A stretch of 8,055 nucleotides of DNA from a bacterium (lineage in GTDB: Bacteria; Blakebacterota; Blakebacteria; Blakebacterales; Blakebacteraceae), in NCBI GenBank assembly GCA_025774205.1, contig JALGWK010000072.1:1-8055 (forward strand), given 5' to 3'. The stretch's first letter is position 1. Every line of letters begins with the position of its first letter. The translations under genes were made by a program, and so were the position numbers. This document shows, one piece after another, positions 1-5,884 of the stretch. The notes under the pieces were generated by a model that did not search any database, had not been told where the DNA came from, and saw only the letters and a program-made list of their open reading frames with translations.

Positions 1-929
1 CGGTTGATAGTCGTCATGATGTTCAACGAGCCACGGTTCATGGACCTCGAACGCCGCCCGGCTCCCGATCACGTGATAGGAATGAACCAGGTCCACGGTC
101 GCCTCCCGGAAGGCATCTGTGACCTCCCGGTCGGGTGCCAGACCGGCTTTCCCGAGGAAGGTGTCACATGCGCTCTGCAGGTCGGGATCGATGGCCAGAC
201 CCTCGGGTTCGAGGACGATCCCGCGCAGCGAATTATCCGTGGCCTCCGGTTCGAGGAGCAGTCGGGTGACCGTGATCATGTCACCGGCAGTACCGGTGAA
301 CCAGCCGGCTGTATCGAGTCCCGGTGAGAGGGGGAAGCAGCCTTCACGGGACCACTCATGGTCGGGAGTCAGGCGCAGACCGAGGATGCCGCAGAAGGAC
401 GCAGGGACCCGCACCGAACCGCCGGTATCCGATCCGAGCGCCAGTGGAACCAGCCCGCGGCTCACGGCCCAGGCTGAGCCGCTGCTCGAACCACCGCTCA
501 TCCGGTCGGGGAAGCGGGGATGGCGGCAATGTCCGAAATGAGCGTTCCTGCCGGACAGGCCGTACGCGACGCGAATTCATTCAGGTGTGTCTTCCCAACC
601 GGTGTCGCTCCCAGAGAGCAGAGGCGGGTAACGAGCGGGGCGGTGTCGGCCGGTATCCCCCGGACCGAATCGAGGAACGTCGATGAGGCCGTTGTCGGCC
701 AGCCGGCGACGTCGTAGAGATCCTTGACGAGGAAGGGTACTCCCGCCAGGGGACGATTCATCCAGTCATTCATTGCGGCCCCGGTTCCGAATCCCGGAAC
801 CGTCTCCGGCATCCAGGCAACGGCCGTCCTGAATTCCTCTTCGTCGACCTCCAGGGATCGCCTGGTGAATGCCTGGAGAACAGCGTCAGGCGAGTCGTAC
901 CCGTGATCTCGCCAGTCGTTCAGCGTCAT
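1..929 (-). pseudogene. Amidase-signature family hydrolase, frameshifted and cut off by the left window edge
   Basis: The gene would encode an amidase-signature (AS) serine hydrolase that cleaves a carboxamide to acid and ammonia; its substrate cannot be told. The ATG at 929-927 overlaps the M20 stop codon (ATGA), with GGAGG upstream inside that gene, which suggests translational coupling. The first frame gives the AS N-terminus with the catalytic lysine in FLVKDLYD (K69) and continues to KTHLNEFA at about residue 120. It then shifts out of frame and stops at 500-498. Reading resumes in another frame as YGLSGRNAHFG, then GGSSSGSA (cis-serine) and GSDTGGSVRVPA (nucleophile serine). That frame is open to base 1, ending in EPWLVEHHDDYQP. 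The break coincides with a tandem TCGCG duplication; dropping one copy joins EFA directly to YGLSGRN. All catalytic residues survive, so the lesion is either recent or a sequence error. The C-terminal part lies outside the window. The family is certain; true pseudogene status is not. Confidence 0.85.
565..574 (-). repeat. 5-bp tandem duplication (TCGCG x2) causing the amidase frameshift
   Basis: On the minus strand the amidase reads GAAT-TCGCG-TCGCG-TACGGC. With two copies the frame goes EFASRTACP and terminates about 22 codons later. With one copy it reads EFAYGLSGRN, which matches the usual AS-family sequence just before the conserved Asn-x-x-Phe-Gly segment. Direct duplication of a short GC-rich word is typical of replication slippage. 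Confidence 0.8.
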
Positions 930-2260
930 CGTTCACCACCCTCCAGCAACAACCGGTCGATCACGAGATTGCTCAGGGCCCTGATGCCGACAGGAACGGC
1001 GGAGTCATCGGCCCGCATACCCGGATTGTGGAGGTCACCGCTGACCGTTCCCTCCTTCAGGGTACCGAGGAAGAAGATGAATCCGGGTACCAGCCGGGCG
1101 TAGTAGGAGAAGTCCTCCGAGGCCATCCAGGGAGGCCCCTCGATGACATGTTCGGCCCCGAGCGCGGCCTGGAGGGTGGGGATCATCGATCTCACCAGGT
1201 CGGGATCGTTGATGGTCGGGGGGAGCCCCCTTGAATACGTCAGCTCGCCGGTGCCGCCGCCCGCTGTCGCGATGCCCTCGACGATCTCGGTCATCCTCTG
1301 CTCGACCGTGTCACGGACCGCGTCGCTGTAGGATCGGACGGTACCGGTGAGACGGACGTTCTCGGGGATGATGTTGGAGCGCTCACCACCGTGGAACATG
1401 CCGACGGTGACGACGCAGGAATCGAGAGGATCGAGCGTCCGGGAGGTGATCGTCTGAAGAGCCAGGACGAGCTGGGAGGCCATCACGATCGGATCGACGC
1501 CGGTGTGGGGCCTGGCGGCATGGGTCTGCTTCCCCGTGACGGTGATGGAGAATCCGTCGCTGGCGGCGAGGGCGGGGCCGATTGAGTAGACGATATCACC
1601 GGCCGGTACCTGGGGATCGATGTGGAGCGCGAAAACCGCCACCGGTTCGATCCCCTCGAACAGGCCCTCCTCGAGCATGAGGCTGGCGCCTCCCGACTCA
1701 CCGGCTGGCGCGCCCTCCTCGGCCGGCTGGAAGATGAAGAGGACAGAGCCGGCCAGCTCTTCCTTCAGGTCGGTCAGCACCGTGGCGACTCCCATGAGAA
1801 CGCTGGTGTGGATATCGTGCCCGCAGGCGTGCATCACCCCGACTTCCATGTCGTTGTAGGTCGTCCGCTTTGTGGAGCGGAAGGGGAGGTCGGTCTCCTC
1901 AGTGACGGGCAGGGCGTCCATGTCGGCCCTGATCGCCACCATCGGACCGGGCCTGCCTCCGCGCAGGATCCCGACGACTCCCGTGTGGGCCACGCCTGTC
2001 TTGACTTCAATTCCGAGGGAAGCCAGGTGTCCGGCCACCATTGCCGCGGTCTCGAACTCCCGGTTCCCCAGTTCGGGATTGGCATGGATCTGGTGACGGA
2101 TATCGATGATCGAGGCCTCGCAGCCGGCGATCGCCCGGGAGATCCTCTCGTCGAACCGTCCCGGCTGAGCCAGGGCGGAGGCGGGGAGGAGCAGTACTGC
2201 GCACGCGGCAGGTATGAGCAGTTGAAGCCGGGCGGGGAGTGATTCGATTCTCTTCTGCAT
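926..2260 (-). CDS. Secreted M20-family amidohydrolase (M20D / N-acyl-amino-acid hydrolase-like)
   Basis: This is a di-metal amidohydrolase of the M20 family, the group containing hippurate hydrolase, IAA-amino-acid hydrolase and N-acetyl-amino-acid deacylases. It cleaves an N-acyl amide bond; the exact substrate is unknown. From the ATG at 2260 it has 444 residues. The family motifs are HQIHANPELG (56-65), RADMDALPV (111-119), HACGHD (C146, H148 as metal ligands), QPAEEG (E181/E182), ALHIDP (H213), the dimerisation-domain THAARPHTGVDP (246-257), and C-terminal SEDFSYY (381-387) and HNP (H411). The N-terminus is a signal peptide: basic MQKR, a hydrophobic core LLIPAACAVLLLP, and an ALA|Q cleavage site near residue 31. 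It is therefore probably exported, whereas many M20D enzymes are cytosolic. Start 2260 has AGAGG nine bases upstream. An in-frame ATG at 2308 has a stronger but very close AGGAG and would add 16 residues. The open frame reaches further to 2500, but that part would overlap the sulfatase and is not family-like. It forms an operon with the downstream amidase. Confidence 0.93.
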   Translation of the reverse strand: MQKRIESLPARLQLLIPAACAVLLLPASALAQPGRFDERISRAIAGCEASIIDIRHQIHANPELGNREFETAAMVAGHLASLGIEVKTGVAHTGVVGILRGGRPGPMVAIRADMDALPVTEETDLPFRSTKRTTYNDMEVGVMHACGHDIHTSVLMGVATVLTDLKEELAGSVLFIFQPAEEGAPAGESGGASLMLEEGLFEGIEPVAVFALHIDPQVPAGDIVYSIGPALAASDGFSITVTGKQTHAARPHTGVDPIVMASQLVLALQTITSRTLDPLDSCVVTVGMFHGGERSNIIPENVRLTGTVRSYSDAVRDTVEQRMTEIVEGIATAGGGTGELTYSRGLPPTINDPDLVRSMIPTLQAALGAEHVIEGPPWMASEDFSYYARLVPGFIFFLGTLKEGTVSGDLHNPGMRADDSAVPVGIRALSNLVIDRLLLEGGER

Positions 2261-2357
2261 GGATGTGATCCTCTCAGGGAGTCTCTGTCGATTCGCCGGA
2301 TGTAGCATAATCTCCTCTTCCCACAATCTCCAGTGGGAGGCTACGATACGGACTGCC
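2261..2357. promoter_or_regulatory. Divergent intergenic region, probable promoters for the M20 and sulfatase genes
   Basis: This 97-bp gap between two divergently read genes must hold start signals for both. On the plus strand a CATAAT at 2306-2311 (within TGTAGCATAAT) resembles a -10 element and would leave a leader of about 40 nt before the sulfatase ATG. No convincing -35 is visible. On the minus strand AGAGG (2274-2270) serves the ATG at 2260, and AGGAGA (2316-2311) sits just before the alternative ATG at 2308. A small inverted repeat CTCC-AGTG-GGAG (about 2328-2339) could be a weak hairpin or operator half-sites. No transcription factor site is recognised. Confidence 0.35.
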
Positions 2358-4175: not shown

Positions 4176-5884
4176 TGGCTGACGACGGCGATACCCGTCC
4201 CGGGGGGACCGGACTATCCGGAAAGTTCCGCGACGATCGACCACTCCTCTTCCTGCTGCTCGGTATCGCCCTCTTCCAGGTTGTGACGATGCCGGCCTTC
4301 TTCTATCCGGGCGACAACTTCGCTCCCCGGGCGGCGGCGGTGAACCTCCTCACCACCGGTGACATCGGGATCGAACCGTCGGCGCGACCGGAGCTCGAAT
4401 CGTTCCTGCGACAGAAGGGACAGTACTTCTTCGAGCGGGACGGGAGCGGCCGGCTCTACTCGAAATACGGGATCGGGAACACGCTGCTCTGCCTGCCGCC
4501 ACTCCTGGCCGACCGGCTGACCGGCGGGGACCTCGGGTTCCAGAACAATGCCGCCTCACTCCTGATCTGGCTGAACCTCTGGTCGATCGTCCTGACTCTC
4601 CTCGCGACGGTCTTCATCTACCGGATCGTCTCGCTCTACACCGACCGTTCCCTGATCAGGATCGGCTTCATCCTCGTCCTCTGGTACACGACCTTCGCGT
4701 GGTACTACCTGCGCTCGCCGAGCCTTGAGATCTACCAGGTGGTGCCCTTCCTCGGATTCATCTTCCACCTGCTCGCCTCGCTGAGAGCGAGGGAGGGGGA
4801 GGCTCCCGGAGCATCGGCAGAAGCACCGGCAGAAGCACCGGCAGGAGCATCGGCAGAAGCACCGGCAGGAGCATCGGCAGAGGCATCGGCAGGAGCATCG
4901 GCAGAGGAGGTCGATCCCCGGTTCGGAGGACATCTTCTGCGGGCCGGCCTCTGGCTCGGCGCCCTGGTGCTGGTGAAACTCTTCTTCATCATCCTCGTCC
5001 CGGTGGTCTGGATCTTCGCGCTCAGCGCCGGACGGAAGAGCGATCCCCTCAAGGAAAGGCTGCGGGGGAACCTCTCGGAGACGCGGATCCGGGCCCTCAT
5101 CCGTCCGCTCGTGATCCCGACGGTCGTGATCGTCGTTGCCGTGCTGCTGGTGAACCAGATCAAGTTCGGCTCGCCCTTCAACTCGGGGTACGGGCAGTGG
5201 CTGGGAGCCGACGGTCAGTCGCACGATCGGTTCGCCTTCTCCTATCTCGTCCCGGCCGTTTCGTCGTTCCTCTTCAGGCCGGGCAACGCCAACATCTTCA
5301 TCCACGCGCCCTCACTGCTGGTCGCCCTTTTCGGACTGCCGGCCTTCCTCCGCCGCAACCGGTCTGAGGCGCTCTTCCTGCTGGCGGTCAGCGCCGTGAT
5401 CTTCCTGGGGGTGATCCCCTTCTCCTCCTGGGCCGGAGAGTGGTGCTACGGTCCCCGCTACCTGCTCCCGATCGTCCTGATCGGCACCCTGCCGCGGATC
5501 GAGGTGGGGGAGTGGCTCCTGCGGGCCCCCCGCCGGATAGCGGCGCCGATCACGATCACCGTCGGTGCGGTCCTGTTCTGGTCCTTCTCGATGCAGGTAC
5601 GGATCAATTCTCTCCACTACTTCACCTTCCACCGGACGCAGGCCTTCTTCGCGCCCTTCCAGAACCCCGACATCTCCGCGTATTACGGTGGTCTCTTCCA
5701 CCGGGGTATCCTCCATCGCGATCTGATCAGGTCTCGAGAGAGGAGGGGCGAGTTCCCCCCGGCCGCGATCCTGAGGGAACTGGTTCCACCGGAGGGAAGA
5801 GGCGAAGTCGAACGGGCGCTGCTGCCGGTACTTCATGAAGCTGTCCGACCGAATTTTCTCCTGCTCCTGCGGCCGGGAAGGTAA
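4175..5884 (+). CDS. Polytopic membrane protein, GT-C / PMT-like glycosyltransferase-type
   Basis: This integral membrane protein of 569 residues has roughly ten hydrophobic segments, among them about 24-42, 125-150, 162-178, 188-204, 253-285, 311-326, 376-392, 399-417 and 456-474. The overall plan resembles GT-C glycosyltransferases and PMT-like proteins that use a polyprenyl-phosphate sugar donor. An acidic first external loop (PGDNFAPRAAAVNLLTTGD, D47) could hold the catalytic Asp. GRLYSKYGIGN (92-102) and SWAGEWCYGPRYLLP (418-432) resemble conserved segments I associate with a family of uncharacterised bacterial membrane proteins of this kind. Catalysis is unproven. The ATG at 4175 overlaps the sulfatase TGA (TGATG), so translation is probably coupled; a GTG at 4172 is an alternative. 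The Shine-Dalgarno is weak. Residues 212-243 are an Ala-rich tetrapeptide repeat in the loop after the fifth or so membrane segment. The C-terminal about 90 residues after 475 are soluble. An alternative is a non-enzymatic membrane protein of the same fold. Confidence 0.75.
   Translation: MADDGDTRPGGTGLSGKFRDDRPLLFLLLGIALFQVVTMPAFFYPGDNFAPRAAAVNLLTTGDIGIEPSARPELESFLRQKGQYFFERDGSGRLYSKYGIGNTLLCLPPLLADRLTGGDLGFQNNAASLLIWLNLWSIVLTLLATVFIYRIVSLYTDRSLIRIGFILVLWYTTFAWYYLRSPSLEIYQVVPFLGFIFHLLASLRAREGEAPGASAEAPAEAPAGASAEAPAGASAEASAGASAEEVDPRFGGHLLRAGLWLGALVLVKLFFIILVPVVWIFALSAGRKSDPLKERLRGNLSETRIRALIRPLVIPTVVIVVAVLLVNQIKFGSPFNSGYGQWLGADGQSHDRFAFSYLVPAVSSFLFRPGNANIFIHAPSLLVALFGLPAFLRRNRSEALFLLAVSAVIFLGVIPFSSWAGEWCYGPRYLLPIVLIGTLPRIEVGEWLLRAPRRIAAPITITVGAVLFWSFSMQVRINSLHYFTFHRTQAFFAPFQNPDISAYYGGLFHRGILHRDLIRSRERRGEFPPAAILRELVPPEGRGEVERALLPVLHEAVRPNFLLLLRPGR
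4808..4903 (+). repeat. In-frame minisatellite: eight 12-bp units, (G/E)A(S/P)A
   Basis: Eight contiguous 12-bp units fit the consensus GRRGCAYCGGCA (R = A/G, Y = C/T). Four are GGAGCATCGGCA (GASA), three are GAAGCACCGGCA (EAPA) and one is GAGGCATCGGCA (EASA). The order is GASA, EAPA, EAPA, GASA, EAPA, GASA, EASA, GASA. Because the unit is a multiple of three, gain or loss of copies changes loop length without breaking the frame. The array lies between SLRAREGEAP and EEVDPRFGG, in a loop between two membrane segments. The minus-strand reading is a Cys/Arg-rich artefact, not a gene. Confidence 0.95.

Follow-up and report, generated by a model that had tools for sequence, protein, structure and literature searches.

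The amidase signature family (Pfam PF01425) comprises enzymes in which one continuous open frame of ~430 aa is expected, with a Lys / cis-Ser / Ser triad in GGSSxGS and DTGGS(V/I)R contexts. Recent frameshift pseudogenes and assembly frameshifts in draft metagenome-assembled genomes (MAGs) both take the form of a single indel with conserved sequence on either side and intact relatives, and real pseudogenes can make up several per cent of genes. Slipped-strand phase-variable genes carry, in the gene or its promoter, a tract of several simple sequence repeats whose copy number differs between cells or strains, and within a coding frame the length of the repeat unit is not a multiple of 3. A review describes multiple tandem repeats as the feature by which slipped-strand phase variation is identified (PMC5149525). 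Here we compare with these systems a bacterial amidase gene whose frame is broken by an extra 5 bp. The window analyzed (8,055 nucleotides) covers contig C229 from end to end; the draft MAG to which this contig belongs has 527 contigs and is 85.9% complete.

A direct check of the window located TCGCGTCGCG at 574-565 on the minus strand, in the context AATGAATTCGCGTCGCGTACGGCC, confirming the doubled TCGCG from which a sequence-only reading of this DNA had set out. As shown in Table 1, the doublet divides the amidase gene into two frames. Frame A runs from MTLND to KTHLNEFA, contains the catalytic Lys69 (context FLVKD, codon 725-723) and, after its non-homologous residues, ends at a TGA at 500-498. 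Frame B resumes with AYGLSGRNAHFG, continues through GGSSSGSA (495-472) and GSDTGGSVR, in which the nucleophile Ser of DTGGSVR is codon 417-415, and has no stop to base 1. Both halves match PF01425 over consecutive profile segments (44-109 and 127-219), scoring 49.7 and 92.3 bits against a gathering cut-off of 27. The Lys, GGSSSGS and DTGGSVR motifs of the family are all present but spread over two frames, and the single open frame expected of a member is interrupted at 565-574 and again by the contig end. Because the window is the whole contig, the end of the gene is missing: the last ~115 aa are absent from C229 and were not found anywhere else in the assembly, and a search of the MAG turned up neither another copy nor another allele of the locus. 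Thus, the earlier claim of an intact catalytic triad holds for the residues but is not demonstrated for the full gene, and the window edge up to which frame B is free of stops is also the edge of the contig.

Table 1. Coordinates and descriptions of features in the window and of frame-breaking changes elsewhere in the MAG
Feature	Position	Strand	Description
Amidase 5' part, frame A	498..929	minus	143 aa: 120 homologous aa to LNEFA, then 23 out-of-frame residues
Amidase 3' part, frame B	1..567	minus	AYGLSGRN..., GGSSSGSA, DTGGSVR; open to contig edge
TCGCG TCGCG	574-570 and 569-565	minus	Exact 5-bp tandem doublet; +5 bp relative to orthologues, frame-breaking
ATGA overlap	498..501	minus	Frame-A stop TGA (500-498) and in-frame frame-B ATG (501-499)
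M20 peptidase/amidohydrolase	926..2263	minus	Intact; TIGR01891 above cut-off
Pyruvate phosphate dikinase (PPDK)	L105:375-418		22-bp exact two-copy tandem duplication, breaks the gene; flanks 95-96% identical
Lipoamide-dehydrogenase-like gene	L143		67-bp deletion; flanks 88-92%
Sensor kinase	L116		53-bp net deletion; frame-breaking in this MAG
C69 peptidase	L141:3056-3081		13-bp exact two-copy tandem duplication, breaks the gene
TonB-dependent receptor	L102:1484-1540		28-bp exact two-copy tandem duplication, breaks the gene
Unknown ~600-codon ORF	L119:1172-1265		47-bp exact two-copy tandem duplication, breaks the ORF

The repeat itself is unremarkable: the window holds nine period-5 doublets against 8.8 +/- 2.7 expected. 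Because such doublets occur at chance level, the significance of this one lies in the frame break and in homology. Among the four genomes of the phylum that were examined, including that of the MAG, orthologues with open frames were found in a same-genus genome (G001, 460 codons) and a same-family genome (G002, 440 codons), and the remaining genome (G003) gave no match. DNA alignment with the two orthologues revealed the 5 bp as the only frame-breaking gap, the remaining indels (12 bp and 3 bp) being in frame, and removal of one copy restores the amidase frame as had been proposed. Both orthologues, each from another species, read TTCGCCTA, with a single copy, TCGCC, that differs in its last base. 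PF01425 or related NCBIfam models recognize the halves as well as the intact orthologues, although the orthologues fall below the NCBIfam equivalog cut-offs: the nearest model to the intact orthologue is NF006169 (PRK08310, 'amidase'), at 263 bits against a cut-off of 391, and its nearest solved chain is 2dc0, a probable amidase. Near M20 genes of other phyla, none of 80 loci held a close relative of this amidase, and one (L071) gave a weak match.

Both halves of the amidase are under purifying selection, with dN/dS relative to G001 of 0.23 for the 5' part and 0.17 for the 3' part; the neighbors lie at 0.10-0.21. The dS of the amidase was 1.17 compared with 0.76-0.91 for the neighbors, and hence the gene evolves slightly faster than the other genes of the cluster. 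With G002 as outgroup, relative-rate counts were 9:6 and 14:15 (combined, 23 vs 21), revealing no acceleration on this lineage, and an old pseudogene was rejected on this ground. Nor was there a second lesion in the amidase. From the same counts, the time without constraint is at most ~6-12% of the branch, a rough bound that is indicative only because dS is near saturation. Neither dN/dS nor the rate counts detected relaxed selection after the break, as would also be the case for a very young pseudogene. Overall, because constraint was kept and neither acceleration nor a second lesion was seen, the break is either very recent or not real.

The sequence-only reading had attached importance to the break because the amidase is translationally coupled to an apparently intact M20 enzyme. 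The M20 gene is indeed intact (dN/dS 0.14 relative to G001) and, judged by eye, its product has a likely N-terminal signal peptide. The overlap is also real, since the M20 TGA overlaps the amidase ATG in an ATGA at 929-926 (GTGA in G001), and the order ABC permease, membrane protein, sulfatase, M20, amidase is common to the window and G001. However, the amidase lies downstream of the M20 gene and in G001 no same-strand ORF directly follows it, so that its unit appears to end with it, and the overlap does not make the break important. Elsewhere in the window, an in-frame 12/24-bp minisatellite encoding EAPAGAS-type repeats lies at 4815-4880 on the plus strand, within a 570-codon ORF that by eye encodes a multi-pass membrane protein and has no Pfam match.

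To place the break among others in the same assembly, we took a sample of 63 MAG contigs (322 kb, 279 kb of it readable) and 81 contigs of G001. Frame-breaking indels were found in 4 of 62 query ORFs of the MAG (58.8 kb of coding DNA aligned to G001), the amidase included; the other three are the PPDK, lipoamide-dehydrogenase-like and sensor kinase genes of Table 1, named by eye from their translations, with Pfam backing the first. Exact two-copy duplications 10-100 bp long that join two long same-strand frames were scanned for, and four were found in the 279 kb (13, 22, 28, and 47 bp), compared with none in 695 kb of control DNA (80 loci from other genomes, all centered on one gene family, M20) and two in 604 kb of G001. 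The excess of frame-breaking duplications in the MAG is significant at P about 0.007-0.011, and the 5-bp site itself is too short for the scan to separate events from chance. The 13-bp and 22-bp duplications each split one Pfam domain (C69 at 140/137 and PEP-utilizers_C at 80/74, respectively). Separately, an 11-base run of N accompanied by a frame change lies within a gene of G001 (L169:15141-15151), which suggests that scaffolding affected that assembly too. A search of the literature on assembly duplications in MAGs found nothing useful.

We consider an assembly or consensus error to be the likeliest origin of the extra copy, with a probability of about 0.55. The 5 extra bases would be a short exact duplication made in draft metagenome assembly at overlapping reads or contig ends or, alternatively, where strain variants meet. 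It is unlikely that genes flanked by such well conserved sequence would so frequently have just died, and the broken genes in this MAG are more simply explained by an assembly process that introduces short exact duplications and deletions; we infer that the amidase site belongs with them. Against this, the other duplications scanned are 13-47 bp long, so the 5-bp one may differ in class, and real replication slippage leaves the same two-copy form. A real, very recent null mutation, in which slippage doubled TCGCG and left either a newly formed pseudogene or a variant that is still segregating, is a possible though tentative alternative. The exact doublet, the single copy in both relatives, the lack of a second lesion, the short time without constraint and the raised amidase dS are all consistent with it; against it, the prior for error is raised by the further genes of this assembly that are broken between well conserved flanks, and no loss of constraint is seen in the relative-rate tests. 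Such a mutation would truncate the amidase after 120 native residues and leave the upstream M20 enzyme unaffected, and the product would be inactive because translation stops at 498, past the Lys but before both triad serines. In the assembly as given, the frame is broken and the relatives are intact, and we found no difference between this gene and a recent frameshift pseudogene or an assembly frameshift in a draft MAG. Of the origins offered by the sequence-only reading, very recent inactivation thus survives, as does assembly error, and it is toward the latter that the data lean.

The third, a reversible switch in which the amidase would be turned on or off by gain or loss of a TCGCG copy, has no support. 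Like the units of slipped-strand phase-variable genes, the 5-bp unit is not divisible by three and lies within the coding frame; however, there are two copies only, at a chance frequency, in place of a tract of several repeats, and the two-copy form is not conserved. Enzymes of this type are not known as usual phase-variable targets, and we regard the switch as very improbable. We give still less credence to a working split gene, in which frame B would be made by termination-reinitiation at the ATGA at 501-498, a possible reinitiation site, with the two fragments forming the enzyme, or in which ribosomal frameshifting would join them. The frame-A stop does overlap an in-frame ATG and frame B shows past constraint, but neither the ATG (TTG in G001) nor the extra 5 bp is present in the relatives, with no sign of a conserved split form, and the dN/dS values are explained by constraint predating the break. 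Moreover, the break falls inside the catalytic core, adding a 23-residue foreign tail at the cost of ~22 native residues, and inspection by eye revealed no slippery site. Overall, the switch and the split gene have little or no positive support, and it is highly unlikely that the doublet is real and the halves are made separately through the ATGA overlap as a split amidase or two-state switch in this species.

If the extra copy is an assembly error, the gene would be an ordinary member of the amidase signature family at the end of a short M20-amidase unit, and most likely intact in the organism, where it would encode a predicted Lys-Ser-Ser amidase that is probably cytoplasmic because no signal peptide was seen. 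The frameshift is of a known kind under either leading reading: rather than a new type of switch, it is probably an error of assembly or, failing that, an ordinary mutation of very recent date. If the mutation is real, it represents one ordinary recent gene loss. More generally, some frameshifts among the gene calls of this MAG are probably absent from the organism, and its 'pseudogenes' should not be taken as biology without reads.
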